Shown: positions 12,383 to 53,013 of the stretch, piece after piece
How the letters are laid out: every line of letters begins with the position of its first letter
Numbering within the stretch: position 1 is the stretch's first letter
Translations under genes and position numbers: made by a program
Origin: Leisingera daeponensis
GTDB taxonomy: Bacteria; Pseudomonadota; Alphaproteobacteria; Rhodobacterales; Rhodobacteraceae
Direction of reading: 5' to 3'
DNA: 53,708 nucleotides
Assembly (NCBI RefSeq): GCF_019801465.1
Contig: NZ_JAHVJA010000018.1
Span: 1 to 53,708, forward strand
Notes under the pieces: generated by a model
The model's database searches: none
The model's input: the letters and a program-made list of their open reading frames with translations, nothing else
What the model was told of the DNA's origin: nothing

Positions 12383-12410
12383 GAGTTCCTCCCTTTATTG
12401 AAAGAGGCGT

Positions 12411-17571: not shown

Positions 17572-19202
17572 AACGACCCCGCTTCGATGGCCCGGCCGCC
17601 CGAAACGGTGCCCCAGACGCCAACGTCCTTCAGCGCCTCGCCTCCCATTTCGTAGGGGTCATCTTCCAGCACCGCGAAATCCGCACGCTTGCCGACCTCG
17701 ATGGAGCCGACCTCCCCATCCAGCTTGAGCGTAAAAGCCGCGCCGAGCGTGATCGCGTGCAGCGCCTCGTCAAGCGTGATGCGCTCTGCAGCACCAAGAC
17801 GGCGCCCGCTGTCAGTCAGCCGGTTGACCGCGCACCAGGCCGTGAAGAGCGGTCCCAGCGGCGTCACCGGTGCGTCGGAGTGGATCGCCAGCGGCAAGCC
17901 CAGATCCAGCGCGCTACGGCAGGGGTTCATGCGGTTGGCTCGCTCAGGGCCCATGGTGATGTCGTGATGCTTGTCGCCGAAGTAATACAGGTGATTGGCG
18001 AAAAAGTTCACGCAGCAACCCAGCGCTGCCGCCCGCCGCAATTGCGCCTGGTCCGCCATCTGGCAATGCTGAAGTGTATGCCGGTGATCGGGCAGGTATT
18101 GCTCCGATAGTGCCGCCTCGAGGGCTTCGATGGCCGCAAGGCTGGCGGCATCGCCGTTAACGTGGATATGCATCTGGATGCCGGCGCGATTCAGGTAGGT
18201 CGCCATAGTTCTCAGTGCGTCCGGTGCAATGTTCCAGATACCCTGCGCCGTACCACGGTAGTACCCGGGCGTTTTCATCTGCGCCGTGAAACCTTGGATC
18301 GATCCGTCGGTGACGATCTTGACCCCACCCAGACGCAGCCGGTCCGTCGACCTTGCAGCAAGCACCTTTGCCCGATCGGTCAGCTGAGCCGTTGGCATCG
18401 ACATCGCCGACAGCATCGGTACTAAGCGTAGCGGAAAGCCTTCCTCGCCGGTGACACTCCGCAATTCGTCCACCGCGTCGTCACCTAGTTCGTTCAACAG
18501 ATCGGTAGAGGTAGTCACCCCTGTCCGGCAAGCCGATCGCGCAAAGTTCCAAATTGCATCGCGCCCGCCGGTCAACTGGCGGAAGCTGGTACCGATACGC
18601 CGCATCACCGGGAACATCGCGCCCATTTCGTGCAATTCGCCGTGCAGCGACCCGTCCGTGTTACGGATCACCCCGGGCAGATCGGTGCCGCAGCCGTAAC
18701 CGGCCAGATCCATTGCAACCGAGTTCGCGGTGATCAAATGCATATTCGAATGGAATACGATGACCGGACGCTCCTGCGATACCTGATCGAGATGCTGCCG
18801 CGTCAGACGCTCGCCCGGAACGAAGAGCGGATCGAACCCCCAACCGACCACCGGTCCGTCCGGCGCCACCGAAGCGCATTCTTGCAATCGTGAAATCAGG
18901 GCCTCGGTGGTGCCCACACCCGGCCAATGGTGTCCATCCGGCGCGATGCGGCCAAAGTGTCCAAGATAGGTGTACTCCCAGATCGACCCTTCCATTAGAT
19001 GTGCATGCCCCTCGACGAAGCCCGGCATCAGCACCTTGTCCGCAAAACGGTCGTCCCGCACCGTGTCGGTCCAATGGCTCATGTCGTTCGGAGTGCCTAC
19101 CCCGAGAATGGTACCATCAACCGACACGGCGACATGGGTGGCCACGGGCCGCGTCGGGTCCATCGTAATGATGCGGCGGGCTGAGTATACGGTCGTGGGC
19201 AT
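17568..19202 (-). CDS. YtcJ-like metal-dependent amidohydrolase
   Basis: A 544-residue enzyme of the amidohydrolase_3 group. The metal motif H66-x-H68 is in MPGFVEGHAHLMEG, VKIVTDGSIQG is the central strand, and MQIHVNGDAA-like text (IQMHIHVNGDAA), HTLQHCQ and AIHSDAPVTPL supply the later ligands and the catalytic aspartate. The closing segment GSIEVGKRADFAVLEDDP is the composite beta domain. It hydrolyses an amide or related C-N bond; the substrate is unknown. It is the first gene of an operon with the CobW GTPase and the SSS symporter, and is divergent from a LysR regulator 103 bases away. Confidence 0.87.
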   Translation of the reverse strand: MPTTVYSARRIITMDPTRPVATHVAVSVDGTILGVGTPNDMSHWTDTVRDDRFADKVLMPGFVEGHAHLMEGSIWEYTYLGHFGRIAPDGHHWPGVGTTEALISRLQECASVAPDGPVVGWGFDPLFVPGERLTRQHLDQVSQERPVIVFHSNMHLITANSVAMDLAGYGCGTDLPGVIRNTDGSLHGELHEMGAMFPVMRRIGTSFRQLTGGRDAIWNFARSACRTGVTTSTDLLNELGDDAVDELRSVTGEEGFPLRLVPMLSAMSMPTAQLTDRAKVLAARSTDRLRLGGVKIVTDGSIQGFTAQMKTPGYYRGTAQGIWNIAPDALRTMATYLNRAGIQMHIHVNGDAASLAAIEALEAALSEQYLPDHRHTLQHCQMADQAQLRRAAALGCCVNFFANHLYYFGDKHHDITMGPERANRMNPCRSALDLGLPLAIHSDAPVTPLGPLFTAWCAVNRLTDSGRRLGAAERITLDEALHAITLGAAFTLKLDGEVGSIEVGKRADFAVLEDDPYEMGGEALKDVGVWGTVSGGRAIEAGSF

Positions 19203-22617: not shown

Positions 22618-23820
22618 ATGGACGCAGTATTGCACAGCAAGCTTCGTACCGACGCCGATAGGCTATCGGAAGCGCTCGACGCAATGTCGAAGCTGTTCCT
22701 CGCACCAAAGGAACAGAAGCAGCTCAGGACATTCACTTCATCAGAAGTTGCTCAGCTCCTTCGCGTGAGCGATGGATACCTACGTAAGTCGCATTTCGAC
22801 AGGAAAATTCCCGAGGTCGAACAAGGCCCAGGTAACAAGCGCTCATATACGGCCGAGGACATCCTGGAGATCCGTAAAATTCTGGCGCAGAACGCCAAGG
22901 ATCCTCTCCAGTTCCTGCCAGGCCGCCGTGAAGACGATAAGCTTCAGATCTGGTCTACGGTCAACTTTAAGGGAGGCAGTTCCAAGACCACCACCTCTGT
23001 TCACTTGTCGCAGCGACTTGCGTTGAGGGGGTATCGGGTTCTGGCTATTGATGCTGATCCGCAGGCGTCTCTTACAACCTTCTTCGGATACCAGCCCGAA
23101 ATTGACTTCCGCCACGGCGGAACTCTGTATGATGCCATCCGCTATAATGACGGCGAAACCAACCGCGTCCCGATCACGGAAGTTCTTAGGAAGTCGTACT
23201 TCCCGAACTTGGATCTAGTCCCGGGCGGCATCATGTTGTCCGAGTTCGAGACTGAAACCCCTACCGCCCTCAGCCGCGGGGAGCAGCCGGTTTTCTTCAA
23301 CCGGATTCGTGATTCACTGCGCCAGCTGGAAGATGACTATGACATCGTCATAATCGACTGCCCGCCGCAGCTCGGCTACCTAACCATGTCGGCGGTCTGC
23401 GCGTCGACCTCCCTGTTGATGACCATCATCCCGGAACGGGTGGACCTTGCGTCCGCAAGCCAGTTCCTGAACATGGCATCTGGCGTCCTTGAGGTTCTCC
23501 ATTCCAATGGCGGCATCGGCGCCTATGACAACTTCACATATCTGCTGACCCGCTTCGATACCTCGATTAGCGCCCAGCAGGATCTCGCGGAATGGATCAG
23601 GGAGATCCTGGGGGACAGCGTGATCCCGACACCTTTTGTTAAGTCCTCTGCCGTCAGCGACGCCGGACTTGGGCAGAAGACCGTCTTCGAGGTCGACCTA
23701 AGCGGTTCAAAAAACAGGAAAACATACGATCGCGCCATCGAATCCATAAATGGCATTGCCGACGATATCGAGCGCAAGATCCAGGCATCCTGGGGGCGGG
23801 AGGTAGACGATGAAGCGTGA
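22618..23820 (+). CDS. repA: Plasmid partitioning ATPase RepA
   Basis: A 400-residue RepA of the repABC type. The N-terminal part holds a MerR-like helix-turn-helix (TSSEVAQLLRVSDGYLRK, residues about 40-60). The ParA ATPase follows, with deviant Walker A FKGGSSKTTTSVHL near residue 118 and Walker B DYDIVIIDCPPQLG. RepA binds its own promoter to repress the operon and, as an ATPase, drives segregation with RepB on parS sites. It overlaps repB by 11 bases. Length and domain order match intact family members. Confidence 0.93.
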   Translation: MDAVLHSKLRTDADRLSEALDAMSKLFLAPKEQKQLRTFTSSEVAQLLRVSDGYLRKSHFDRKIPEVEQGPGNKRSYTAEDILEIRKILAQNAKDPLQFLPGRREDDKLQIWSTVNFKGGSSKTTTSVHLSQRLALRGYRVLAIDADPQASLTTFFGYQPEIDFRHGGTLYDAIRYNDGETNRVPITEVLRKSYFPNLDLVPGGIMLSEFETETPTALSRGEQPVFFNRIRDSLRQLEDDYDIVIIDCPPQLGYLTMSAVCASTSLLMTIIPERVDLASASQFLNMASGVLEVLHSNGGIGAYDNFTYLLTRFDTSISAQQDLAEWIREILGDSVIPTPFVKSSAVSDAGLGQKTVFEVDLSGSKNRKTYDRAIESINGIADDIERKIQASWGREVDDEA

Positions 23821-24784
23821 CCTGCTCGCTAAGAGTCTCCAAAAAATGGCGGAAAAGAAGCCGGAGGCCCCTACCCCTTCAGTTGCGGCCGCGCCATCAA
23901 AAGAGGGCGCGCCTAAATCGTTGTTAAACATGTCTGATGTCTTGACGCAGGTTGCTTCTCAGGCGGCCCAAGATGTTGATGTATCCGACATTGCTGATTC
24001 CGAAATTTCGGACCGGTTCGACGTTACGGTTGGACTGGACCCCCTTGTTGAATCAATCCGCAACTCCGGCCAAGAACTTCCTGTTATGCTCCGGTTCCGC
24101 CGGGGCGAAGGACCGCGCTATGAGGTTGTTTATGGACGACGCCGCATTGCTGCATGCCGTAGGCTAGGAATTAGGGTCCGCGCACTTATCAAAGAGATGA
24201 ACCTGCGTGAGGCCCTTGTCTCGCAGGCACTTGAAAACTCAGCCCGCCTAGAGCGCAGCTTCATTGAACAGGCGGTCTTTGCAACGGAGCTCGAAAAGGC
24301 AGAGTTTTCACGCACTGAGATCTGTGAAGCACTCGCAGTTGATAAGGGCACGCTCAGCCGCCTGTTGTCGATCGTGCGAGACATCCCGGCAGGTGTAGTT
24401 AACCGCATTGGTGCCGCTCATGATGTCGGCAGGCGCCCCTGGATGGAACTTCGGCGCTTGGCGCTGCTTGAGTGCGCGCCTTCAGAGGATAAGATGATAG
24501 CGCTGATACCGGATGAAGCCGAAGGGGCTCCAGCCAGGGTAAACAAGCTCATCGAAGCATTGCAGGAGATTGAACGACGTGCCACTGCGCCGACGCGGGC
24601 CGCTAAGTCCGAAAGCCCCCCTGCCCCGGCTCCGACGCAGCTCCCGGGCTCTCAGGTGAAATACCAGGTAGGCAAGGGAAAACTGACAATCCAGGTCGGC
24701 GGAAAGCAGGAGGAAGAATTCATTGAATTCGTCAAAAGCAACTTGTCGGCCCTATACGAGACCTGGTCAAAGAAGGGTTCGTGA
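23810..24784 (+). CDS. repB: Plasmid partitioning protein RepB
   Basis: A 324-residue ParB-family protein. The ParB/Srx N-terminal domain reads DPLVESIRNSGQELPVMLRF and YEVVYGRRRIAACRRLG (boxes I and II). The helix-turn-helix follows (SRTEICEALAVDKGTLSRLLSIV). The C-terminal region should dimerise. RepB binds parS palindromes; candidate sites with GTTGGCCATGGCCAAC are found downstream of repC and in the gap after repB. It is translated with repA (11-base overlap). Confidence 0.92.
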   Translation: MKRDLLAKSLQKMAEKKPEAPTPSVAAAPSKEGAPKSLLNMSDVLTQVASQAAQDVDVSDIADSEISDRFDVTVGLDPLVESIRNSGQELPVMLRFRRGEGPRYEVVYGRRRIAACRRLGIRVRALIKEMNLREALVSQALENSARLERSFIEQAVFATELEKAEFSRTEICEALAVDKGTLSRLLSIVRDIPAGVVNRIGAAHDVGRRPWMELRRLALLECAPSEDKMIALIPDEAEGAPARVNKLIEALQEIERRATAPTRAAKSESPPAPAPTQLPGSQVKYQVGKGKLTIQVGGKQEEEFIEFVKSNLSALYETWSKKGS

Positions 24785-24788
24785 TCGG

Positions 24789-24819
24789 GTGTTGGCCAGG
24801 GTTTTCGCTTGGCCAACAC
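24789..24819. repeat. Split parS-like inverted repeat after repB
   Basis: GTGTTGGCCA (24789-24798) and TGGCCAACAC (24810-24819) flank an 11-base spacer. The arms equal the two halves of the GTTGGCCATGGCCAAC palindrome found elsewhere, pulled apart. It begins five bases after the repB stop and could also fold as a hairpin in the transcript. Confidence 0.6.
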
Positions 24820-24842
24820 ATGTAAGTCATTGATTTCATTAA

Positions 24843-24858
24843 GTTGTCCATGGCCAAC
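24843..24858. promoter_or_regulatory. parS-like palindrome, one mismatch
   Basis: GTTGTCCATGGCCAAC differs at one base from the perfect 16-bp palindrome at 27121 and 27243. A RepB binding site is inferred. Confidence 0.55.
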
Positions 24859-25047
24859 CCCATGGTGAGTTGAGCAGCAGAAGCAAAAACACAAAGGAGG
24901 CAGACACTTAAGCAAAAAGAAACCCCCCGAAAGCGGTAAGGCTTTACAGAGGGTCCCTGTAACTTAGACACTTACTTGGTACCCCGAAAACTGAACCACT
25001 GCAACACCGATTTCGGTGAACGGTACCTTTTTGCCGTCTGAAAAGGC

Positions 25048-26202
25048 ATGAAAACCATCACATCCGCGGCATGCAGTGCCGGGGCACAGGTGAGCTGTGT
25101 CCAAACTGAACACGCAGGCTTCCGGCCGGTACTGCGCAGAGATCTCATGCGCGCACTGCGCAAGTGCCGCAGCAAAATCGGACTCACAACAGGCGATGTT
25201 CTTGTTGTTGATACTTTGCTGAGTTTTCTGCCCTGCCGGGACACCAAAACTGGCGCTGAGCTCCCGGTAGATCCAAGCTTCATTCTCGTGATCTATGCTT
25301 CGAACCAGACCATTTGCGGCCGCGCAAACAATATGTGCGAGCGAGTCTTGCGCCGACATGTTTCAAAGCTGGTGAAACTCGGCCTTCTGCGTCGACGTGA
25401 TAGCGCGACCAGGAAGCGTTTTCCTATCAAATCGAACGGCAAAGTCTGCGCGGCCTACGGGCTGGATCTTACCCCCCTCCTGTTGGCCGCGGACAACATT
25501 GTCCAGATGGCCGCCGACATTGAGCTAGAAGAGGAAGAAATCCGCGGATTGCGCGCCCAGGCACTGACACTGCGCGCCGATCTGCTGAAGGCTGCACATA
25601 CACTGAACGATGAGATTCTGGAGTATGTGACCCAAGCAAAAACCATCCTTCGCCGGTCAACTTTGAAGCTGAGAGAAGTCAAATCACTGCTGACCCGGCT
25701 CAAGGAAATCTCCGAAGTTCAGGATGTTTCCCGCAACCTGAACCCCACCGAGCATCCATGCACTGGGGAAATCAAAGCCAACAAACCGCGTACAGCCCAT
25801 GACCGCAAGCATGTGGAATCCGCGAAAGAGTCCGCCGGGAACGGTCAAAATGTCCGCCAAGTAGAGTCACAAAAAACAGATACATTAAAAATCTCGGAGA
25901 GAAGCGAAGCATCGCTTCTGGAACTGTGGAATGATTGCAGAGAAATCGCGGAGCTCTTCCCTAAGCCACCAAAGAGCCATCAGGATCTGGAAACCATCGT
26001 GCAGACAATGGCGAACTATGTTGGGATTGGCTGGGAATGCCTAGCGAAAACCCAGGCGAGGCTCGGGCTCAGCGAACTATTGAGATCTTTGAACTATATC
26101 GCTGAAAATGCGATGCGCATCGAACGCCCGGAAGCATACCTTATCAGCCTTGCAGGTCATAATCGCTCTATCGCGTACGGCAGCATTAGGAAACCGTTGT
26201 AA
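25048..26202 (+). CDS. repC: Replication initiator RepC
   Basis: A 384-residue RepC, the replication initiator of repABC plasmids. The N-terminal DNA-binding domain contains FRPVLRRDLMRALRKCRSKIGLTTGDVLVVDTLLSFLPCRD and a winged helix (VLRRHVSKLVKLGLLRRRDSATRKRF). A coiled-coil-like middle (residues about 150-235) precedes the conserved C-terminal region (AYLISLAGHNRSIAYGSIRKPL). The origin in this family lies within repC itself. The N-terminal start resembles other RepC proteins in length. Expression is normally limited by the antisense RNA from the preceding gap. Confidence 0.9.
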   Translation: MKTITSAACSAGAQVSCVQTEHAGFRPVLRRDLMRALRKCRSKIGLTTGDVLVVDTLLSFLPCRDTKTGAELPVDPSFILVIYASNQTICGRANNMCERVLRRHVSKLVKLGLLRRRDSATRKRFPIKSNGKVCAAYGLDLTPLLLAADNIVQMAADIELEEEEIRGLRAQALTLRADLLKAAHTLNDEILEYVTQAKTILRRSTLKLREVKSLLTRLKEISEVQDVSRNLNPTEHPCTGEIKANKPRTAHDRKHVESAKESAGNGQNVRQVESQKTDTLKISERSEASLLELWNDCREIAELFPKPPKSHQDLETIVQTMANYVGIGWECLAKTQARLGLSELLRSLNYIAENAMRIERPEAYLISLAGHNRSIAYGSIRKPL

Positions 26203-31727: not shown

Positions 31728-32468
31728 TTGAAAACCATAGTCATAACAAACAACAAGGGCGGCACCGGCAAGACGACTGTCGCCACACAGCTGGCCTATT
31801 CTTTAATGCTAACGGGATATTCCACGGTGGCGGTTGACTTGGACAGCCAGTGCAATCTCACGACGGCGCTGCCACGTCAGCGCGTGGCCGGCAATGCACT
31901 CGACCTGGTGGAGGCGGGGGAGCCGCCTGAGTTCACGGCCGCCCCTGGTGAACTTGTGCTGATCGAGGGGCATGCCGACATGCCGGTCGTCCGTGACGAC
32001 GCCATATTGCGCAACACGGCCGGAGCGCTGCAGGCGCTGAAAGGGGCGGACTTCTGTATCATCGACACACCGCCGACCTACAGCGCAACCGTCTATGGGG
32101 CGATGCTGGCAGCCGACTACATTCTTGCGCCCATTGAACTGAAGCGGTTTTCCGTGGACGGGATCAAGACCGTGCTGAAAGCTCTGGTCGAAGTCCGGGA
32201 GATCAACCCGGATGTGAAGTTCCTGGGCCTGCTGCCGTCCCGTTTTGACGCGGTGAAGGAGATGGAGCGCGAGTCCCTGCGGGTCATGGCGGCGGAGTTC
32301 CCCCAGCTCATCATTCCGCATGCGATCCGGAACCGGACTGCTTACGAAAAAGCCGAGGCGGAAGGCATGCCAGTCAGCGAGGTTTCAACCAGAAGCGGGC
32401 GGGAGGCTGCGGCCGAGTTTCAGGCCTTCTTTGAATGGTTCCTTGAAAATGTGGAGGCTGGCACATGA
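31728..32468 (+). CDS. parA: ParA-family ATPase (second partition system)
   Basis: A 246-residue ParA of the short, chromosomal/soj-like type, without the N-terminal helix-turn-helix domain of RepA. Deviant Walker A NKGGTGKTTVATQLA is at residues 9-23, and FCIIDTPPTYSATVYGAML follows. Start is TTG after GAGGAAGGA. The gene overlaps parB by four bases. It is independent of the repABC partition genes and should act on its own parS palindromes found downstream of parB. Confidence 0.87.
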   Translation: MKTIVITNNKGGTGKTTVATQLAYSLMLTGYSTVAVDLDSQCNLTTALPRQRVAGNALDLVEAGEPPEFTAAPGELVLIEGHADMPVVRDDAILRNTAGALQALKGADFCIIDTPPTYSATVYGAMLAADYILAPIELKRFSVDGIKTVLKALVEVREINPDVKFLGLLPSRFDAVKEMERESLRVMAAEFPQLIIPHAIRNRTAYEKAEAEGMPVSEVSTRSGREAAAEFQAFFEWFLENVEAGT

Positions 32469-33526
32469 GCGGCGGCGGTTCCAACTCCCGGGTCAACAGG
32501 TCCATGCTGTCTTCTCTGAAGGAGGCAGGAGCCCTCAATGACCTGATGCGAATGCCCCGGACAGCAGGGCAGGGGAGCCCACGTGATATCCCCATCGACT
32601 TAATCGAACCGGATCCGGAGCAGCCGCGCAAACATTTTGACGAGGAAAAACTGGCGTCCCTGGCGGACAGCATCAGCGTGCAAGGCGTCCTGCAGCCAAT
32701 CACCGTCCAGCCGCTCAATGGCGACGGCAGGCATTTGATCATCATGGGGGAGCGGCGCTACCGCGCCGCGAAACGGGCAGGCCTGCAGTCGATCCCGGCC
32801 ATAGAACGGGAAATGACCGAGGAGCTGCGCATGGCGCAGCTGACAGAGAATGTGCAGCGCGATGGCCTCACCACTTTTGAAATCGCCAATGCCGTGTCAG
32901 CCATGCGCGAAGCGGGCAAGTCCCGGGGCGAGATCGCCAGCGCGCTAGGGTGGGGAGAAAGCGAAGTCTCACGGTTTGCGGCTGTCCTTGGCATGCCTGT
33001 ACTGCTGCAGCAACTGGCGGAAAAAGATGTCCCGGTCCGGGCTTTGTCCGACCTCTATGCGCTTTGGAAGAAGAACCCCGACGAGGTGGAGGAATTTGTG
33101 CAAACTTCCGACGCGGGGGATGTTTCTCGGGTGACTGTCGCGAGACTGCGTTCCAGATTGACGCAAGACGCTACAGATGCTGCCAGGGGTCCCCGCACCG
33201 CGGAAGACGCAGCAGGCGGGTGCAGCGATCAAACGCAGTCCGTTGAAATGCAAACCGGCGGTGACACGGCTGCCGGGCAGACTGCATCCTTGGACCATGG
33301 CGGAACCGTCAAAGCACCGGAGGTGAAAAGCGTGGGTGGCACCCAGAATGTTCAGGCGGGCAGGGGGGCTGCCATCATCTGCAGGCACGGCGGAGCTACT
33401 GGCCGACTTCTGACGGACCAGCTTGCCTCCAACTCGAAATCCATCCTGGTGAGTTTTGAAAACGGGAGCCGGGTGGAGGAGGTCCTGTTGTCGGAGCTGG
33501 AACTGATCGAGGTCGTCGCGCTGTAG
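32465..33526 (+). CDS. parB: ParB-family protein (second partition system)
   Basis: A 353-residue ParB. The ParB/Srx domain reads IDLIEPDPEQPRKHFDEEKLASLADSI and IMGERRYRAAKRAGL, with the helix-turn-helix following (SRGEIASALGWGESEVSRFAAVLG). The C-terminal 130 residues (from about 225) are low-complexity and then end in a small domain (GRLLTDQLASNSKSILVSFENGS). It is longer than many plasmid ParBs. Its likely centromere is the three-copy GTGGTCC-g-GGACCAC palindrome at 33662-34062. Confidence 0.87.
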   Translation: MSGGGSNSRVNRSMLSSLKEAGALNDLMRMPRTAGQGSPRDIPIDLIEPDPEQPRKHFDEEKLASLADSISVQGVLQPITVQPLNGDGRHLIIMGERRYRAAKRAGLQSIPAIEREMTEELRMAQLTENVQRDGLTTFEIANAVSAMREAGKSRGEIASALGWGESEVSRFAAVLGMPVLLQQLAEKDVPVRALSDLYALWKKNPDEVEEFVQTSDAGDVSRVTVARLRSRLTQDATDAARGPRTAEDAAGGCSDQTQSVEMQTGGDTAAGQTASLDHGGTVKAPEVKSVGGTQNVQAGRGAAIICRHGGATGRLLTDQLASNSKSILVSFENGSRVEEVLLSELELIEVVAL

Positions 33527-34130: not shown

Positions 34131-34694
34131 ATGCCGACACAAAAGAAAGCCGCGATGGCCTATTTGCCCCCAGACCGCCATGCCCGGCTTGCAGCCGTTG
34201 CAGAGGCCAAGGGGCAAACAGTTTCGGCCTTTCTGGGTCAGCTCATCGATATCGTTCTGGGAGAAGAGGAGGGCCCGGCAGGGCCTCCACAGCCGTCCTC
34301 GCGGTCCCGCCGCGAGGGCAAGGTCACCGTCCGCCTGGCCTCTGATGCCCGTGAAGCGCTGTCCGAGGAAGCAGTGCGGGCCGGGGTGACACCGTCTACC
34401 TTGGCGGCCAATCTGCTGACCGCGCGGTTTCGCGCAGCCCCTCAGCCGACGGCGCGCGACCGCCGCCGTTTCATGTCAGGTCTGCGGCAGATACATGGCC
34501 TGGCCACAAACGTGAACCAGATCGCCTATGCGATGAATCGCGGGGTCTTCACCGGGGACAGCTACGCCCCGGCCCGGAAGGAAGTGGTGCAACTGCGCGG
34601 AGAGGTGGCGGAGCTGCGGCAGCAAGTGCGTGACTTCGCCAGGGGCCGGCTTGCGTTTCAGCTTGGCCTCGAGGAAGAGGAGCTGGCGGATTGA
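34131..34694 (+). CDS. MobC-like relaxosome accessory protein
   Basis: A 187-residue protein with two ribbon-helix-helix-like segments (AYLPPDRHARLAAVAEAKGQTVSAFLGQL and VTVRLASDAREALSEEAVRAGVTPSTLAANLL). A MobC-like middle (LRQIHGLATNVNQIAYAMNRG) and a coiled-coil end (VVQLRGEVAELRQQVRDF) follow. It should bind oriT and help the relaxase. The stop overlaps the relaxase TTG start. The ATG at 34131 gives the ribbon-helix-helix start; no strong ribosome site is seen. Confidence 0.8.
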   Translation: MPTQKKAAMAYLPPDRHARLAAVAEAKGQTVSAFLGQLIDIVLGEEEGPAGPPQPSSRSRREGKVTVRLASDAREALSEEAVRAGVTPSTLAANLLTARFRAAPQPTARDRRRFMSGLRQIHGLATNVNQIAYAMNRGVFTGDSYAPARKEVVQLRGEVAELRQQVRDFARGRLAFQLGLEEEELAD

Positions 34695-35902
34695 GCGACT
34701 TCAAGGACACCTACGGGTTTCAGGATTGCTGGCCGCCCCGGAAGGGCCGCTTGGTGCGGAATGCGGCCTCCGGTTTTTTTGTTGCAGAGACTGAAAGGCG
34801 CAGCAACCCTCAGCAGTCCAAGGCGAGCGTGAAAGCAAACCAGGTGACGTTACCTGCCCGTGGCGGGCAAACGATTTCTGCAGCTGACAAAGCGCGCCTG
34901 GCGCGGGTGGTCAAAGGCACGCCGGAGGTCATGGTGAAGGTGACCAAGCCAGCCAAATCCGACAAGCACGGGAACCCGATCAAGGTCACGCGCGGAACTG
35001 AGGCGAGGCGTGTTGCGGAGCACATCAATTACATCAGCCGGAACGGCAAGCTCGAGGTGGAGACGTCCGATGTCGGGGTGCTGAAAGGCAGGCAGGCCAC
35101 CGCGGAGCTCTACCGGGACTGGATCGAGAAGCATGACGATGCGCGGGCCGCCGGCATGGCGTCGGACCGCACAAGGATCACCACCAGCATACTTTTTTCA
35201 ATGCCGGGCAATACAAATGCCAGCGGTGTGAAGGATGCGGTGCGGGCGCTGGCGGAACAGGAATTCGGCGGCCGTCACGACTACGCTATGGCGCTCCACA
35301 CGGACACCCCGCATCCGCATGTGCACCTGACGGTGCGTACGGTTGGGCATGATGGCGTGAAACTCAACTTGCGGAAAGCTGATTTGCAGCATCTGCGCGA
35401 TACCTTTGCGGAGAAACTGCGCCAGCGCGGCATCGAGGCGGAATCCACCCCGCGGCATGCCCGGGGCAAGACCCGTCGGGGCGAAAGCACTCCTGTCTAC
35501 AAGATCCGCCAGCGCGGCGGGGAACTCTATATTGATGCGAAAAAGCGCAATGAGGTGCGCCGGGATCTCGAGCGCAACAATGGCGTGCTTCCAACCCATG
35601 CTTGGGACGCGGCAATTGCTGACCACCGGAACAGGGTCATGCGGACCTATACGGGCGCGGCCCGGATACTGTCGCAATCCGATGATCCCGCGGACCGGGA
35701 CTTGGCAAAGGAGACCGGGCGATTTACCGCCCGGCTAACGGAGGTCGTTACCCAGCGGGCAGAGATCGCAAGAGCATTGGAGGCGGTGCCGTCGCCTGGC
35801 CGCATTGGCGATACAACCGGAGCCCGCGGGACGGTGCAATACCCGGAGCCAGCGCGCGGGGAAGAAGACCGCTCGCGGCCGGGCAGGGGACGTGAACGGT
35901 AA
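34691..35902 (+). CDS. Relaxase / mobilisation nuclease (MobA/VirD2-type)
   Basis: A 403-residue relaxase. A candidate catalytic tyrosine Y114 lies in EHINYISRNGK, and the metal-binding histidines H203, H208, H210 and H212 are in LHTDTPHPHVHLTVR, the family HxDxxHxH-type motif. It nicks oriT and pilots the strand. The C-terminal 60 residues are low-complexity. The start TTG overlaps the mobC stop, so the two are coupled. No type IV secretion genes are in this window, so the plasmid looks mobilisable but not self-transmissible from this segment. A short hairpin follows the stop. Confidence 0.87.
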   Translation: MSDFKDTYGFQDCWPPRKGRLVRNAASGFFVAETERRSNPQQSKASVKANQVTLPARGGQTISAADKARLARVVKGTPEVMVKVTKPAKSDKHGNPIKVTRGTEARRVAEHINYISRNGKLEVETSDVGVLKGRQATAELYRDWIEKHDDARAAGMASDRTRITTSILFSMPGNTNASGVKDAVRALAEQEFGGRHDYAMALHTDTPHPHVHLTVRTVGHDGVKLNLRKADLQHLRDTFAEKLRQRGIEAESTPRHARGKTRRGESTPVYKIRQRGGELYIDAKKRNEVRRDLERNNGVLPTHAWDAAIADHRNRVMRTYTGAARILSQSDDPADRDLAKETGRFTARLTEVVTQRAEIARALEAVPSPGRIGDTTGARGTVQYPEPARGEEDRSRPGRGRER

Positions 35903-43836: not shown

Positions 43837-44160
43837 TCAGATCTCAAGATCCTCAATAGACTTGCCAGCTTTCAATGCTTCGTGAACCCAAGCCGGTTTC
43901 CGCCCGCGGCCGGTCCATGTCTGGGATGCGTCATTTGGATTGGCGTATTTGGCGGGTGCCTTTGTGCCGGACTTGCGGCTCTTGCCGCCATGAAGTGCAA
44001 TCACATCTTCGAAGGACACACCGTGTTTGTCTGCGATGGCCAGCATTTCGGAATAGGCGTTTTGCTTGGCCTCTTTCTCCACCTCCACTTTGCGGGCTTC
44101 GATATCCTTTGCCAGCGCTTCCAGTTCAGCGGCATTCAGCCCGGTCAGATCAATTGCCAT
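43837..44160 (-). CDS. H-NS-family nucleoid protein
   Basis: A 107-residue H-NS family protein. An N-terminal helical oligomerisation region (LNAAELEALAKDIEARKVEVEKEAKQNAYSEMLAIADKHG) is joined by a basic linker (GGKSRKSGTKAPAK) to the C-terminal DNA-binding core YANPNDASQTWTGRGRKPAWV. It binds AT-rich curved DNA. Plasmid H-NS proteins typically silence acquired genes and lower the cost of carriage. It lies downstream of, and in the same direction as, the amide-hydrolase operon, separated by 287 bases and an inverted repeat. Confidence 0.9.
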   Translation of the reverse strand: MAIDLTGLNAAELEALAKDIEARKVEVEKEAKQNAYSEMLAIADKHGVSFEDVIALHGGKSRKSGTKAPAKYANPNDASQTWTGRGRKPAWVHEALKAGKSIEDLEI

Positions 44161-44446: not shown

Positions 44447-45325
44447 TCAATTCGCTGGCAAAATTGCCCGGCGCAGGCGGGTGAACGGGCGCTCTGGCGT
44501 CTTGCTCAGATAGTAGCTGCTGAGAGTGGTGACCGGTGCCATGGAGAGGGCAAAACAGGCGCCCTGTTTCAGCTGATCCGAAAACCATGGCGCCTCATAT
44601 TGCGGGGTCGTCGACCAGCTTTCGCGGATCGCAGCGTTCTGCATGTTGACGATATTGGTGAAGGCCGAAGCCGGATCATCCGGGGTTTTGCGGTAGCTGA
44701 GGGCGATGGAGGAGAGTTCCACCAATTCGGCATGGGTGAACGGCAGCGCCGCGTTGCGGATCTCGACCGGCGGGTACTCCTGACGGCGCATGATGCAGTA
44801 AACGGTCTGCCCGCCGCAGGTCGGATCACGGTCGGTGAGTTCGAGAGCATAGGGCTGGTTTGAGACTACTATGCCACCCGCCGCGCCGATGCTGATGCCG
44901 AAATCGCCGCGGTTGTTGTCACGCGGGCTGCCCTCAAGCAGGTACAGGTCCGCTGCCGCCAGCGTGCTGCCAAAGCCTTCGACAGAGGCCTTGAGTTGGG
45001 CGGCGTTCTGCCTTGCGGTTTCATTGTCGGGCGGGTTGGCACCCTGGGCATAAATTTGAATGCTGTCGTAGTTTTCCGCCGTCACAACCGCGAAAAAGGC
45101 CTTGATGCAATCGGGGCTGTCCAGATGTGCCAGCGTGGCTGAGATCTCCTCGCCTTTCTGCGCAACAACGATGGTGATGATGCAGGAGGTTGCACTGTCC
45201 GAATACAGGGTCAGCCCGGGAACCAGCGCAGATTTCAGGTAGTTGCCTTGATCGACAAATCGGAAATCTCCATCGGGTTTCGGGACGGGCGGGTTGCTGT
45301 TGCGGTCTATGGTGACAGGTATCAT
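44447..45325 (-). CDS. NTAN1/CheD-like amidohydrolase (putative deamidase)
   Basis: A 292-residue protein. Residues 41-75 read SDSATSCIITIVV and ISATLAHLDSPD, closely paralleling the active site of eukaryotic protein N-terminal asparagine amidohydrolase (SDDATTCHIVV and the downstream TH.D element). C48 would be the nucleophile and H67 (with D69) the base; CheD/CNF-type deamidases use a similar Cys-His pair. The text after residue 85 (IQIYAQGANPPDNETARQNAAQLKASVEGF) also follows the NTAN1 order. No signal peptide. Its ATG overlaps the stop of the C45-like gene. I infer side-chain amide hydrolysis, possibly of Asn or Gln; this is remote homology recognised by eye. Confidence 0.65.
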   Translation of the reverse strand: MIPVTIDRNSNPPVPKPDGDFRFVDQGNYLKSALVPGLTLYSDSATSCIITIVVAQKGEEISATLAHLDSPDCIKAFFAVVTAENYDSIQIYAQGANPPDNETARQNAAQLKASVEGFGSTLAAADLYLLEGSPRDNNRGDFGISIGAAGGIVVSNQPYALELTDRDPTCGGQTVYCIMRRQEYPPVEIRNAALPFTHAELVELSSIALSYRKTPDDPASAFTNIVNMQNAAIRESWSTTPQYEAPWFSDQLKQGACFALSMAPVTTLSSYYLSKTPERPFTRLRRAILPAN

Positions 45326-46146
45326 GCGGCGGCCCCCTCATAGGTTTGCAGCGGATTGGTCAGCGGGTTGCCGTTGACCTGGTACTCGCAGACCGGTGCC
45401 AGGCTGGGGTTTGCTGAGAACAGTGCCGTGGCTTGGGTCTGGAATTCCTCGTTCGGATAGTCGGTTTCGCGGCAGATCGAGAGTTCGCACCGGCCATAGT
45501 ACTGATCGGTCAGCACCGACATGATCCCGGCATGGGTCGGGTCCTGCTGAAGCAGCAGCTCAGCCCGGGATAGCCGCAGATAGGTCGAGTGGTTGGCCGG
45601 GTAGTGGATTGCTTCCGGCTGAATGCGGAAATGGTTGGTTGAGACGAAATGCCCGGCGTGGCGGACGATCCGGCGCACCGGCGCGTGCAGGAAGGGGCGG
45701 GGCATGTATTCGAGGAAGATCGAAACGGGCTGGGTTTGCGCCTCGTCTGCCCATCCTGTCAGCAGGCTGATATCGGGCGCCGGAAAAGCGGTTCCGCTGC
45801 CCATGTCCTGGTAGAACCCGGCCAGGAAGTCTGCGGCGGCGCTGGCGGTGGTGAAGCTGGAGATGCTCTTCTCATAAGCCGCGAACAGGGCGTCGGTCTG
45901 CGCATCGGTGACGTAGTAATTAGCGGACGTGGTATAGGCATCAGCGGCCACAAAGGACACGCCCGAACTGTTGCTGCCTGCCCAGAGCCGCCCGCTGCCG
46001 TCTCCCCGAGTCAGGGCGGTGTAGCTGACAACGCCGCTACTGCCCGTCCTGGTCTGCGGCTCGTTGAATTCGGTGACTGGGATCAGGTCGCATTGCTTGA
46101 AGGTATGGATGGTCTGGCCGTCAAAAACGGTTCCAATGGTACACAT
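45322..46146 (-). CDS. Ntn hydrolase, peptidase C45-like
   Basis: A 274-residue protein that starts Met-Cys-Thr, so removal of Met would expose C2 as the N-terminal nucleophile. Features of C45/acyl-CoA:6-APA-acyltransferase-like Ntn hydrolases are present: GSNSSGVSFVAADAY (N59 region), HFVSTNHFR (N171), HSTYLRLSRAELLL (the S-x-x-R-x-x-R/L helix) and LSICRETDYPNEEFQTQATALF (the SICR strand followed by the TxA turn). Such enzymes hydrolyse amide bonds of peptides or acyl-amides and sometimes mature peptide products. It has no signal peptide. It is downstream of the papain-like gene by 32 bases and coupled to the next gene by an ATGA overlap. Confidence 0.7.
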   Translation of the reverse strand: MCTIGTVFDGQTIHTFKQCDLIPVTEFNEPQTRTGSSGVVSYTALTRGDGSGRLWAGSNSSGVSFVAADAYTTSANYYVTDAQTDALFAAYEKSISSFTTASAAADFLAGFYQDMGSGTAFPAPDISLLTGWADEAQTQPVSIFLEYMPRPFLHAPVRRIVRHAGHFVSTNHFRIQPEAIHYPANHSTYLRLSRAELLLQQDPTHAGIMSVLTDQYYGRCELSICRETDYPNEEFQTQATALFSANPSLAPVCEYQVNGNPLTNPLQTYEGAAA

Positions 46147-46178
46147 GGAAAAATCTCTCGCTGAATTTCCGGGAGGGT

Positions 46179-46916
46179 TCAGATGATGTTCACGGATCCA
46201 TCGGGCACGAACATGTAGCAGTAAAAGCCGTAGGTCACGGCGTATTCATTGAAGTCCTTACCTGTGCCGCTGGTCTGGATTGGCCCCTGGTTGACCCGCC
46301 AGTTGGCGCTTGCCGGATCGGTGATAGGTTTGCCGGCAAAGTCGAAGTTCGTCACCTGATCGCCGCCATCCTTTTGCGACCAGGACATCGGTGAAAGGCT
46401 GTCGCAGCGCGCCCAGTGGTAGTCCCCAGGCCAGTTGGCCTCCGGATCTCCGCCGATGGCGTTTTCCGGCGGCGAAAACATCAGGGCAACGTAATGACCG
46501 CCCGTGCCGACGGTGGCCGCATGCTCTTTGATATCGGCCAGCGTGGTGCCGACATAGACCAGCCCGTCGCTGATGGCATTGTCACGCACATGCTCCGCGC
46601 TGAAGTTTTCCGAGAGCGTAGGCGCGCCGCTGGCGCGGCCAGGTTGTGGGAAGGAGTTCGAGGCGATGTTGCAGCCATAGGCGTAGCAGTTGTTGTTGGG
46701 CTGATACTTTGCCGACATGAAGGACCCTTGGCAGTCGCCTGCCGGGTCATAGCCGGTATTGGTGTCGCGGACGGTAGCGGCATATTGCGGAACGCTGCCC
46801 CAGGCGGTCGCGACGTAGTTCGGTGCGATCAACGCTCCGTCAGGCGCCTCCTCCCTAGTGAAGTGGCGAAGATCACCTTCGGCCACGCGGCCGCTGAATT
46901 TGAATGCAGGCGTCAT
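46179..46916 (-). CDS. Possible papain-like cysteine hydrolase
   Basis: A 245-residue protein of a family I know only as uncharacterised. NNNCYAYGCNIASNSFPQPG (residues 74-93) has a cysteine at a helix start as in papain-like folds. GTGGHYVALMFSPP (H141) and DYHWARCDSLSPMSWSQKDG, with a following GDQVTNFDFAGKPITDP, resemble the His/Asn side of such folds. The pattern C77 ... H141 (or H167) ... D/N would be a plausible catalytic set, but I infer this from shape only. No signal peptide. Start at 46916 follows GGGAG; a longer frame to 47018 overlaps the asparaginase gene and is unlikely. Confidence 0.5.
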   Translation of the reverse strand: MTPAFKFSGRVAEGDLRHFTREEAPDGALIAPNYVATAWGSVPQYAATVRDTNTGYDPAGDCQGSFMSAKYQPNNNCYAYGCNIASNSFPQPGRASGAPTLSENFSAEHVRDNAISDGLVYVGTTLADIKEHAATVGTGGHYVALMFSPPENAIGGDPEANWPGDYHWARCDSLSPMSWSQKDGGDQVTNFDFAGKPITDPASANWRVNQGPIQTSGTGKDFNEYAVTYGFYCYMFVPDGSVNII

Positions 46917-46938
46917 GATATTCTCCCGGGTTTTGAGA

Positions 46939-48519
46939 TCAGTTTTGCGAGTAGAGCGTGGCGGAGAGCGTCTGGCCGGAGTAGTTGTAGACGCTGAGCG
47001 TGAGGTTGCCGCTGCCATAGGAACCGGAGATCATCAGCACGGATGAGGCACCGCCGCTGACACCGGTGTCAGTGGCCCAGATGGGTTCGTTGCCGGCGCT
47101 GCGCAGCACCAGGTTGCCGTCATTCTGCATGAAAAGGCTGCCGGGGTGGCCTGCGGCCTGGCTTCCGAAGGGTCCCCACAGGAAAGTCCCGTCGCTGGCG
47201 CTAAGGACTGGGCCGGAGACCGGATCATTGCTGAGTGTGGCGCTGCCATCCAGCGCCATGATTGACTGGCCGGCCAGCAGCTGACTGTTGGTGCGGCTGT
47301 CCAGACGGCTGACGTTTTGTATTTCGCCAAACAGGTTGAGCTGGATGAGGTCTTTGACCTGATCCGGTGTCCAGCTGTTGCCGACTGCAGCGGATTGCAG
47401 GATCATGGTCTTGGTAAAGGCCGCCATCGGCGTCATGTCCGAGGCGCTGAGCGCCCCCACACCGGGCAGCCAGGCGCCCGAGGCATAGGCCGAGTCATTA
47501 ACCGTTCCGGCAATCACCTGGGTGCTGTCGACAATTACGACACCTGCGTCATTGGCGGCCTTCAGAGCGGCGTAGACCGCGCCTTCTGGAGCGTTATCCG
47601 GGTTGCCGGAGGGGAAATTGCCTTCACCATAGGATTCCAGCACCAGGCCTTTCAGGCCCGTGCCCACCGCCGCAGTGATCAGGTTGGCGATGAGGGCGGT
47701 GCTGCTGGTTGTGCTGTAGGCGGCAGGAAAGGCGTTGAACTGCATCACCGGGAAATCATCGATGGCACCGGAGATGGCGGTCAGCTGTGCCTGCGCCGCG
47801 GCCAAGGCGGTGGCGTTGTCCAGGCTGACGCTGGTGCTGACCGGATCCGGCAGCATCCGGTCGGGATATTGGGTCAGCCGGATGCCGTATTGCGCCAGCG
47901 GCGGGTAATTGGGCGAGTTGAACGCCACGAACTCGCTGGCATTCACTTTCAGCACCCGGTCGCCGCGGTAGAGGCAGCTGTCAAAAAAGACCCCGACTTC
48001 GGGAATGCCGAGCCGTGCGCAGGCCACCGCACCGCAGAAATTCTGAAAGGCATCGGTGTTGAAGTTCAGAGTCAGGCTCGAAGCGTCACCTGGTGTGGTT
48101 TCGGCAAACATCGGCACTTGCGAACCGGTGATGATGACCGGCTTGGACAACAGGGCGGTACCAAACCCCTGGGCGTCGAAGACATTCAGCAGAAACGGCA
48201 ATGCGGAGCCGGTGAAATCCATCGAGTCGGTGCCATGCAGAATGACGAAGCCATCATAATCTGCGTAGTTGTCGAGGATGTAGCCTGCCATCAGGCACCA
48301 GTCGCTTGGCTGCAGATTGGTGCTGTCGAGTGTCCCGGTCGTGCTCTCCGGAAAGACCAGATCGGTCTCGTAAACAAGGGTGGTGTCAGAGAACTCTTCT
48401 GCCAGGATCGGGTCGAGGATTATCTGCGATGCAGCGGCGAAATCCGCAGCTGACATGGGGGCTAGCGGATCGCCGACACAGCTGATGGTGCCGCCCGTGT
48501 TAATGATGCAAATCTTCAT
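46939..48519 (-). CDS. L-asparaginase fused to a bulb-type lectin domain
   Basis: A 526-residue two-domain protein. Residues 1 to about 380 are a type I/II L-asparaginase. All four catalytic residues of the E. coli enzyme have counterparts: T11 (NTGGTI), T97-D98 (LHGTDSM) and K191 (YRGDRVLKVNASEF). Residues from about 435 contain a B-lectin (bulb-type mannose-binding) repeat, with the signature MQNDGNLVLRSAGNEPIWATDTG. The start at 48519 has TTGAGG upstream and begins directly at the first strand; there is no signal peptide, so the enzyme would be cytosolic unless exported otherwise. It is the first gene of the four-gene operon. Fusion of this enzyme with a lectin is unusual. Confidence 0.85.
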   Translation of the reverse strand: MKICIINTGGTISCVGDPLAPMSAADFAAASQIILDPILAEEFSDTTLVYETDLVFPESTTGTLDSTNLQPSDWCLMAGYILDNYADYDGFVILHGTDSMDFTGSALPFLLNVFDAQGFGTALLSKPVIITGSQVPMFAETTPGDASSLTLNFNTDAFQNFCGAVACARLGIPEVGVFFDSCLYRGDRVLKVNASEFVAFNSPNYPPLAQYGIRLTQYPDRMLPDPVSTSVSLDNATALAAAQAQLTAISGAIDDFPVMQFNAFPAAYSTTSSTALIANLITAAVGTGLKGLVLESYGEGNFPSGNPDNAPEGAVYAALKAANDAGVVIVDSTQVIAGTVNDSAYASGAWLPGVGALSASDMTPMAAFTKTMILQSAAVGNSWTPDQVKDLIQLNLFGEIQNVSRLDSRTNSQLLAGQSIMALDGSATLSNDPVSGPVLSASDGTFLWGPFGSQAAGHPGSLFMQNDGNLVLRSAGNEPIWATDTGVSGGASSVLMISGSYGSGNLTLSVYNYSGQTLSATLYSQN

Positions 48520-49277: not shown

Positions 49278-52200
49278 ATGCAGTACATTCCCAATGGTCC
49301 AGACATTCCAGAAGCCCTATTAGAAGCTCATGAAGATGGGAAAGTAGTTTTCTTCTGCGGTGCAGGAATATCCTACCCCGCAAAACTGCCAAACTTCGGC
49401 GGTTTGGTAAAAGCTGTATACGACGAACTTGGGGTGACGCACAATGGCGCCGAAGTCGAAGCGCTAAAAGCATACAAGTATGATACCACCCTTGGCTTAT
49501 TAGAGCGGAGGCTGCCCAACGGGCGTTTGAGAGTGCGTGAAGCTATTGCAAACGCGCTTCGACCAAATTTAGCTGGGAAGAAATCGACGCAGACACATGA
49601 GGCGCTCCTTCGGCTTAGCAAGACACGCTCCGGTGCCACGCGGCTCATTACAACGAACTTTGATCGGGTTTTTGAAGAAGTCATAGAGACGAAAAAAACC
49701 AATACACCAACCCACGCGGCCCCGCTGTTACCAGTTCCAAAGAACAGGTGGGATGGGTTGATCTACCTTCATGGCCTTTTGGACGGCACGGGTTCCGAAG
49801 CGAACCTAAACAGTCTCGTTGCCACAAGTGGCGACTTTGGCTTGGCGTACCTCATTGAAAGATGGGCTGCGCGCTTTGTGTCTGAACTATTTCGCAACTA
49901 TACAGTCTGTTTTGTTGGGTACAGTATCAACGATCCCATTCTCCGCTACATGATGGACGCTTTGGCAGCCGATAGCATGATGGGTGAAAATACCCACGTC
50001 GCATATGCGTTTGGAAACTATACACCAAGCAAAAGGATCAAACCGAATCCGAGTGGGCAGCCAAAAACGTAGTTCCCATACTCTATAAAAACCGCAGCCA
50101 TCACTATTATCTGCACGAAACGCTCCATGCATGGGCCAACAGCTATCGAGATGGCATCAATGGCAAGTCGGCCATTGTGGCACGTCATGCACACCACAAA
50201 CCAAGTGGAAGCACACTACAGGATGATTTCGTGAAGCGGATGATTTGGGCGCTAAGCGATCCAACGGGGTTGCCCGCGAAGCACTTTTCTCAACTCGATC
50301 CTGTTCCTCCAATCGAATGGTTGGAGGAGTTCTCCAAACCGAGATTTGGCATTGATGATCTTCCCCGATTTGGTGTGCCAAGGAGTGATCTCTTCAACAC
50401 AAGTCTTAACCCGGAATTAAAATTCAGCCTTCTTTCCAGACCTGCCCCATCCCATCTGGCTCCTCGAATGTCGCTCGTTGACCTCAATGCTGGGCATGGT
50501 TCCGATTGGGACAAGGCAATGGAGGCGCTGGCGAAGTGGTTGGCAAGACACCTGGAGCAAACCGAAGCACTTTTCTGGGTTGTAGGGCAAGGTGGCAATC
50601 TAAGTCCCCGTTTCGAATTGCACCTGAAAAAGCTTTAGAGGATTCAAACCACCTTAACCCGACCATGCGAAAGCTATGGGAATTTGTCGTTTCAGGGTAC
50701 GCCCGATCACGCCACAACAATGGCAGCCTCTACGGGTGGGAAAAGCGCTTCAAGACACACGGAGACACTCCTGTTGTAAGGCAGGAATTCAAAGATGCAC
50801 TGCGCCCTTCACTTAAGATTTCTCGCCCATATTCTTTGAGAACAGATCATTCCGCCGATACGAGCGAAAGGATTTCATCGATTGCCAACGTTGAAGTCGC
50901 ACTGGCATCCGATCACGTTCATTCGGCATATGAGAGCATTCAGAAAACTGAGCAATTCGAAGGCTTTCTTGCAAATATTTTGACCGACATATCAGAGCTG
51001 TTGTCAGAAACGCTGTCGCTTATGTGCGAAGCTGAGATTTCATCCGAGCTTGTAGACTACAGCTACATACAACTCCCGTCGATCTCAGACCATGACCAGA
51101 ACAAGGACTACAACGACTGGACACTCTTGGTGACCCTGTGTCGCGACGCTTGGTTGGCGACCGTAGATCGCAACAGAGAAAACGCAAAAGCTATGCTAAC
51201 AATCTGGGAGAGTTCCAAGCATCCCGTTTTTCGAAGGCTGGTCTTTTTCGCGTTGGCGCAGAGGCCGGACCTCGTTTCGTTTGACACATCGATGTCGTGG
51301 CTATTGGCAGACGAGAGGCATTGGCTTTGGTCGACCTCGACAATGCGAGAGGTTATGCGCTTGCTGGTTTCATTCGGTCCGGTTTTGGCTGCTGATCATA
51401 TGCGGAGGCTCCAGGAGGCAGTACTCGAAGGACCTCCTCGGGCGCGATTCAGAGATGACATTAGCGATGATGAGTTTAAACGTTTTTCAGATCGAATGCG
51501 TTGGTTGAGATTGAAAAAGCTCCTTTCAAATGGCGGAGCTGCAACGGAAAACGCGGATACTTTCATCGCATCGGTGGAAGAACGCTATCCCGAATGGCAA
51601 TTGGCGCCCGATGACCGTGATGAATTCCCAATGTGGAGCTCTAACGGTGAAGAGCAACCGATTGAACAATCACCCAAACAAGTAAAGAATCTGGTTGAGT
51701 GGCTTCGGAACAAGCCTTCGTCTGAAAGTGTCTTTTCTGGTGATAATTGGTCTGAGAGGTGTCGCGATGACTTTAGGCGATCATTCTTTGCTTTGAGGAA
51801 ATTGGCAAGCGAAGGGGTGTGGCTCCCGCAACGTTGGGCTGAGGCCTTATACGCGTGGTCTAGTGACGAGCTTCGAGACCGTTCATGGAAGCATGTTTCT
51901 TCCGTTATTATGAGCATGCCCGAGGAATACTTTGCTGATGCTTTGCATGCGATCGCCTGGTGGGTAAGTCGGATATCAAAAAACGTTGGGGAACATGAAG
52001 AGGCGTTCTTCGCTCTTGTTGATCGAATAATAAAAACCGGTGCTGAAACCGTCGAAGCTTCCGACGATATTTCGCTCAATCACGCCATAAATCATCCAGT
52101 TGGCCATGCCGCTAGTTCACTCTTGAACTGGTGGTTCTCAACAGAACTGGAAGATGATCAGGGGCTCCCAGATGAGCTGAAGGGTCGATTTGCGGAGATG

Positions 52201-53013
52201 AGCAATGCAGATAGTCAGCCGCTTCGGATAGGCTCGGTTATTCTCGCGCAACAAATCATCCCGTTACTGCGTGTGGATGAGGATTGGACCAAACAGCATT
52301 TGATACCAGCGTTTGAATGGGATGCGGACGTCACAAAAGCCGCTGCGATGTGGGACAGTTTTTTGCATGCCCCAAGAATCTACCTACCACTGCTTGAACT
52401 ACTAAAATCGCCATTTTTGGCCGTTCCCGACCACATTGGTGTTCTGGAAGAACAGTGCATGAAGCAATATACGAGGTTCTTAACCTACATTGCCTTAGGC
52501 GAAACTTCGGTTTTTAGCTCCAAGGAACTTCGAGACGTATTTTCCAACCTTCCTGCCAAGTATCTTAACACTGTAGCAGAGACACTGTTCCGAGCCTTGC
52601 AGGGTGCAGGGGAACAACAAGAAGAATACCTAAAGAACCGGGTCATACCATTTGTGAAAAACTTTTGGCCCAGTAAGCCCGAAGCACGCACTGAGATAAC
52701 TTTCCGGTACTTCGCGCAGATGGCCGCGGTATCTCGAAAGGGCTTTCAAGACGCGTTCACTTGTTTCAAAAATCACCTAGGACAGACAACGGATTTTAAC
52801 TACCTGCTTCATCTCCTAGAAGATGGTGAACTGGCCGCTGACCATCCCAGTGAAATACTAGCGCTACTGAGCGCCACAATCCCTGCAGATGTTCCCTATT
52901 TGCATGGCAGGTTGGGTCCTTTGTTGGCCATTATCCAGGGAGCCAATCCTGCTCTCTCAAATGACCCAAACTTCATTCGGCTCACTGTCCTGTCGCAGCA
53001 ACACGAAAACTAG
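49278..53013 (+). pseudogene. Dsr1-like antiphage sirtuin, two frameshifts
   Basis: Three frames together cover about 1245 codons, the size of defence-associated sirtuin Dsr1. Frame one (49278-50072) is the SIR2 domain: VVFFCGAGISYP, LITTNFDRVFEE (NAD-binding and catalytic Asn), DGLIYLHGLLDG (catalytic His) and CFVGYSINDPILRY. The text continues one frame away from about 50036 (QTESEWAAKNVVPILYKN) to 50638, and again from about 50630 (KALEDSNHLNPTMRKLWEF) to 53013 as a long helical sensor region. Adding one A to the A4 at 50031-50034 and one to the A5 at 50627-50631 restores a single frame. Dsr1 proteins deplete NAD+ on phage infection. The gene is AT-rich compared with its neighbours, consistent with acquisition. 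The breaks may be true slippage or homopolymer errors. Confidence 0.8.

Follow-up and report, generated by a model that had tools for sequence, protein, structure and literature searches.

We analyzed a stretch of 53,708 nucleotides from Leisingera daeponensis (contig NZ_JAHVJA010000018.1, referred to as the window) for the genes A to D, which encode predicted amide hydrolases of 4 unrelated families. An earlier note, made from the sequence alone, had described 4 adjacent minus-strand genes with gaps of 22 and 32 bases and 1 ATGA overlap, and the coordinates and gaps were verified. The genes stand in the order A-B-C-D, and the overlap joins C and D.

Gene A, 46939-48519, minus strand: 526 amino acids, type I asparaginase with a C-terminal lectin-like domain
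Lectin-like tail of A, 46939..47289, minus strand: about residues 411-526, limits approximate
Gene B, 46179-46916, minus strand: 245 amino acids, unnamed protein, probable papain-like cysteine hydrolase
Gene C, 45322-46146, minus strand: 274 amino acids, cysteine amidase of predicted N-terminal nucleophile (Ntn) fold, starting Met-Cys
Gene D, 44447-45325, minus strand: 292 amino acids, NTAN1-like N-terminal asparagine amidohydrolase
ATGA overlap of the C stop and D start, 45322-45325, minus strand: read from the sequence

The 22- and 32-base gaps are present again at the loci L002 and L003, and C and D share an overlap in L003, L004, and L006 as well, with translational coupling of the 2 genes as a possible consequence. 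As the earlier note had reported, no signal peptide was visible in A to D on inspection by eye (no predictor was run), and the likely site of action is therefore the cytoplasm.

Families and conserved residues of the 4 enzymes

Gene D gave the strongest single result of the analysis. It matches PF14736 (24.9 bits against a cut-off of 24), and a profile of 12 D proteins searched against PDB (E up to 1) returned only human NTAN1 entries, with E values of 9.5e-7 (6a0e) and 4.2e-5, in line with the NTAN1/CheD-like deamidase proposed before. Most of the 120 listed D-related proteins bear the PF14736 annotation. The catalytic triad of human NTAN1 (S69, C75, and H92) aligns with S42, C48, and H67 of D, and NTAN1 Q51, T73, T74, S254, T255, and E260 align with D Q26, T46, S47, S238, T239, and E244 (numbering counted by hand in both cases). 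The C-terminal segment of this alignment is weak when taken alone (6.2 bits) and is conserved as S-[TS]-T-P-x-x-E. Across an alignment of the query with 119 of its 233 identified relatives (120 rows), the positions aligned with catalytic and recognition residues of NTAN1 are kept in 117-120 rows, except T239, which is Thr in 98 and Ser in 22. Among ungapped rows, the triad is represented by C48 in 118/118, H67 in 119/119, and S42 in 117/118, and, in the full set of rows, the recognition element by S238 in 120/120, Thr or Ser at 239 in 120/120, and E244 in 119/120. For the human enzyme, PMC7022378 describes C75A and H92A as dead, E260A, T73A, T74A, and T255A as having lost activity, and S69A and S254A as slower, with Glu260 forming a salt bridge with the N-terminal amine. 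Because the NTAN1 catalytic and asparagine-recognition residues are nearly fixed in D, this protein most probably acts on free N-terminal asparagine. D shares with human NTAN1 detectable homology, the Ser-Cys-His triad, and the residues recognizing N-terminal asparagine, including the counterpart of Glu260, and differs in being bacterial, in belonging to a 4-gene set, and in that its activity is predicted.

Gene C matches PF03417 (AAT) with 24.6 bits against a cut-off of 23.2. Its predicted structure has the alpha-beta-beta-alpha Ntn fold of the cholylglycine hydrolase/AAT superfamily, with nearest folds including CV2077 (3gvz), NAAA, acid ceramidase, IPN acyltransferase, and bile salt hydrolase; C is 7-18% identical to these amidases and, unlike them, has no propeptide. 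Of these, the 4 other than CV2077 represent families that act on N-acyl amides. All 13 aligned C rows start Met1-Cys2, and from the fold alignment we infer that Cys2 is the catalytic nucleophile. The earlier description of C as an Ntn C45-like hydrolase held for the Ntn fold and the N-terminal Cys. In contrast to the autoproteolytic C45 proenzymes, C is without a propeptide and has its Cys as residue 2, and it scores 32.3 bits against the NCBIfam cut-off of 85.

The asparaginase portion of gene A matches PF00710 (120.8 bits, E 6.9e-35) and PF17763 (71.0 bits, E 1e-19), both over cut-off, and L-asparaginase I chains in PDB (E 1.8e-38); A is the sole PF00710 match within its genome. T97, D98, and K191 are kept in 12/12 covering rows and T11 is invariant in 9/9, and we take these Thr, Thr-Asp, and Lys residues to be the asparaginase catalytic positions. 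Both domains and these positions are shared with the Escherichia coli-type L-asparaginase I (AnsA), from which A differs by its extra lectin-like tail, and A reaches 174.4 bits against the cut-off of 376 for the NCBIfam asparaginase equivalog. The asparaginase half of the previously claimed asparaginase-lectin fusion was thus borne out. The tail resembles mannose-binding agglutinins in PDB (1jpc, E 2.9e-6) but scores 14.6 bits with the Pfam B_lectin model, below its cut-off of 32.4. Within the tail, Q-x-D-x-N-x-V is kept in 13/13 rows, and the final Tyr of Q-x-D-x-N-x-V-x-Y, the sugar motif of monocot-mannose (B_lectin) lectins, is present in 10/13 and replaced by Arg in 3, including the window.

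Sequence searches assigned gene B to none of the families in Pfam, NCBIfam, or PDB, with a single match at E 1.8. C77, H141, and H167 are invariant in 87/87 aligned rows; H141 is apparently absent, by eye, in 1 distant relative (L029). The predicted structure weakly resembles staphopain and other papain-like cysteine hydrolases, with an alignment that starts at residue 72, just before Cys77. B is a probable papain-like cysteine hydrolase, with the invariant Cys and His that the earlier suggestion of such an enzyme would call for and a fold that the model supports weakly. Distant relatives of B (L018, L027, L028, L029, and L030) contain NNCYNY-, QPG-, and DYHWYR-like stretches to varying degree, and some are larger proteins. 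By these sequence features, B and its distant relatives form a broader, unnamed family whose members are perhaps cysteine hydrolases.

Occurrence, linkage, and genomic surroundings

A scan of named genomes starting from D identified 10 loci, 9 of which had homologues of A to D inside the stretch examined. The tenth, in Stappia, carries C-D, with A-B on another contig and divergently arranged. All 4 genes were also present on 1 Vibrio plasmid and in an additional genome from the family to which G261 belongs; G261 itself carries a sequence identical to that of the Pseudomonas locus L009. Homologues of A to D are therefore clustered, or at least share a genome, in 13/13 D-bearing records examined, window included (L036, identical to L008, was left out). 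This agrees with the expectation that a genuine system would be conserved in distant hosts. The 13 records are not independent and form about 9 groups at 90% identity, with 3 roseobacters and 3 pseudomonads being near-copies. Eleven of the 13 look intact; at L003:1-700, A is without about its first 206 residues and has unrelated sequence in their place, and at L002:7197-8001, C reads in 2 frames, each of which may be real damage or an assembly fault.

Gene order differed by host: roseobacters have A-B-C-D, Pseudoalteromonas has D-C-A-B, and Pseudomonas, Marinomonas, Atopomonas, and Vibrio share C-D-A-B. These reshuffled orders, together with the Stappia pairs on separate contigs, show that common descent of 1 string of genes is not enough to explain the linkage. 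Pairwise distances correlated most closely for C-D (r 0.966) and A-B (0.928) and at 0.80-0.86 across the pairs, as computed from 13 related rows, some partial, without a significance test. We read the set from these sequence comparisons as 2 two-gene modules, C-D and A-B, that travel together.

The set is rare and patchy. Strong B matches were found in its own and 1 other genome among 398 Pseudomonadota (1 further weak partial match), in its own genome only among 337 of its class (1 further weak partial match), and twice among 321 genomes of the class of G261 (3 further weak partial matches). D was identified in 3/218 genomes of the family of G261 and, among 218 genomes of its own family, in its own genome only. 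Taken together, A to D are a genuine mobile cassette.

The neighbors of the set vary by clade and include a PAS/sigma-54 regulator, glycine cleavage T, a major facilitator superfamily protein, HipA, conjugation genes, and an integrase-like piece. A gene of the H-NS family lies downstream of D (43837-44160, minus strand), likewise in L002 and L003, and had no match at the other loci in the same tblastn search. Vibrio coralliilyticus plasmids L016 and L017 carry C without D, A, and B, or a C fragment, next to a gene for an ABC substrate-binding protein, an arrangement shared with L012; this state would point either to a cassette in decay or to C having a role of its own. The protein collection also contains a D protein named V. 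coralliilyticus.

Further features of the window were annotated as follows.

49278-50072 and 50506-53013, plus strand: 2 open frames matching the N- and C-terminal parts of the SIR2 defence protein Dsr1 (E 4.9e-118 and 1e-184) within a lower-GC stretch (about 0.50), which may represent a broken gene, a split gene, or a sequencing fault
22618-26202, 31728-33526, and 34691-35902: RepA-, RepB-, and RepC-like genes, a second ParA/ParB pair, and a MobA/VirD2 relaxase domain
11234-13793, minus strand: amidase (PF01425) with a neighboring periplasmic substrate-binding protein
17568-19202, minus strand: Amidohydro_3, a further gene for amide hydrolysis

Judging from its gene content, the contig of 53.7 kb probably represents a mobilisable plasmid of the repABC type.

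Proposed function and alternatives

The chemistry of the cassette points at asparagine. The explanation we favor, and hold tentatively, is that of a horizontally moving two-module cassette whose presumably cytoplasmic enzymes would jointly take apart or inactivate a peptide that bears asparagine and is probably N-capped, for detoxification or for use of the peptide. C, as an N-acyl-amide-type Ntn amidase, would take off the cap and expose an N-terminal asparagine, and D, as an NTAN1-type enzyme, would hold the free amine via Glu244 and deamidate Asn to Asp. This order of steps is suggested by the amine-binding Glu of D, by the fold of C, whose relatives cleave N-acyl amides, and by C-D being the closest-linked and overlapping pair. 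B would cut the peptide, and A would deamidate the asparagine released from it, with the lectin tail perhaps tethering A to a mannose-bearing part or partner. The stepwise dismantling of a peptide, one of the roles suggested by the earlier note, is supported as an interpretation, with an asparagine-bearing peptide now favored.

Several observations weigh against this explanation. C occurs without D on 8/9 C-bearing Vibrio plasmids (a count from plasmid records, which leaves out the host chromosomes), B is present on only 1 of these 9 plasmid records, and the neighborhoods of 2 of the 8 D-less plasmids contained C alone in 1 case and a C fragment in the other. B was also found without A in a 1.6 Mb genome, with neither C nor D on its 8.9 kb contig, and parts of the cassette can therefore act alone. 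No transporter constantly accompanies the set, leaving the entry of a foreign peptide unexplained, and our analysis identified no substrate, cap, or precursor gene; the earlier note had likewise seen no biosynthetic or precursor gene nearby. Further, the fold of B is weakly supported by its model, the lectin match of A is below the Pfam cut-off with the motif Tyr lost in the window, and we infer, rather than observe, that the 4 proteins act on 1 molecule.

The main rival to the dismantling of a peptide is a bacterial tertiary N-degron, in which D would convert N-terminal Asn to Asp, Bpt would add Leu, and ClpS/ClpAP would degrade the product, with B and C creating new N-termini; the cassette would then extend or rewire protein turnover of the host. 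D retains the residues for recognizing N-terminal asparagine and would provide the amidase step of the Arg/Leu N-degron pathways, and PF04377 (Bpt-type) and PF02617 (ClpS) were each identified in 11/11 carrier genomes searched (L005 excluded; G261 and G404 look like 1 assembly). However, the background count, made for PF04377 only, was 121/190 sampled Pseudomonadota, including the own-family genomes listed there; with the family so widespread, its presence in carriers is no link and shows only that the route is open. Genes for protein turnover are also seldom this patchy and mobile, such a pathway has no use for an asparaginase or a lectin, and A, B, and C have no place in the known ones. PMC3692480 describes leucylation of N-terminal Asp by Vibrio vulnificus Bpt, which renders Asp destabilizing, and PMC2988409 describes the prokaryotic N-end rule as without tertiary residues; a bacterial tertiary step is not described in the portions of either source available to us. 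On balance we consider the N-degron unlikely, though the most serious of the rivals.

A conflict system, deamidating or cleaving a phage, rival, or host protein, or a resistance cassette destroying a peptide antibiotic, would fit a set that is rare, mobile, and plasmid-borne in 2 cases and that in the window lies next to a homologue of the SIR2 defence protein Dsr1, the contig also carrying repABC and relaxase genes. We nevertheless regard it as improbable, given that PADLOC returned 0 families for A to D at E up to 1, that C and D had no match in 50,697 phage records and A to D no relatives in IMG/VR scans, and that 10 flanking genes of other loci (scanned with Pfam, not PADLOC) included 1 gene of toxin-antitoxin kind, HipA in L009. 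Scavenging of nitrogen or carbon from N-glycosylated material seems more doubtful still. The lectin would grip mannose-rich glycopeptides and the amidases would free asparagine, ammonia, and a sugar-bearing amine, a scheme in keeping with asparagine-directed enzymes and a mannose-lectin-like tail in 1 set and with the animal origin of some hosts (a bryozoan isolate, and C-bearing Vibrio from oyster larvae, coral, and sea urchin); yet the proteins lack visible signal peptides, the flanks inspected show neither a glycosidase nor a transporter as a recurrent neighbor of the set, and the lectin motif is altered in roseobacter copies of A. A chance cluster of 4 unrelated hydrolases might be suspected from the lack of kinship among the families and from C and B occurring apart, but it is highly improbable and is refuted for the 13 records examined, in all of which A to D are jointly present, in distant hosts and reshuffled order.

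In the literature searched, which left most subscription journals outside, no described system combining these 4 families was identified among the matches listed; the enzyme families are known, and the four-family cassette is undescribed as far as this partial search tells. It is possible, though we would not put it strongly, that A to D constitute a mobile four-enzyme asparagine-processing system with a functional N-terminal asparagine amidase, which would either supply the missing tertiary tier of the bacterial N-degron or destroy a new class of N-capped asparagine peptides. If the activity of D is the one its residues indicate, bacteria would own a eukaryotic-type N-terminal asparagine amidase, a bacterial tertiary N-degron would become directly testable, and the finding would bear on the origin of NTAN1. 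If the set instead clears an asparagine-bearing peptide, it would point to an unrecognized natural product or signal.
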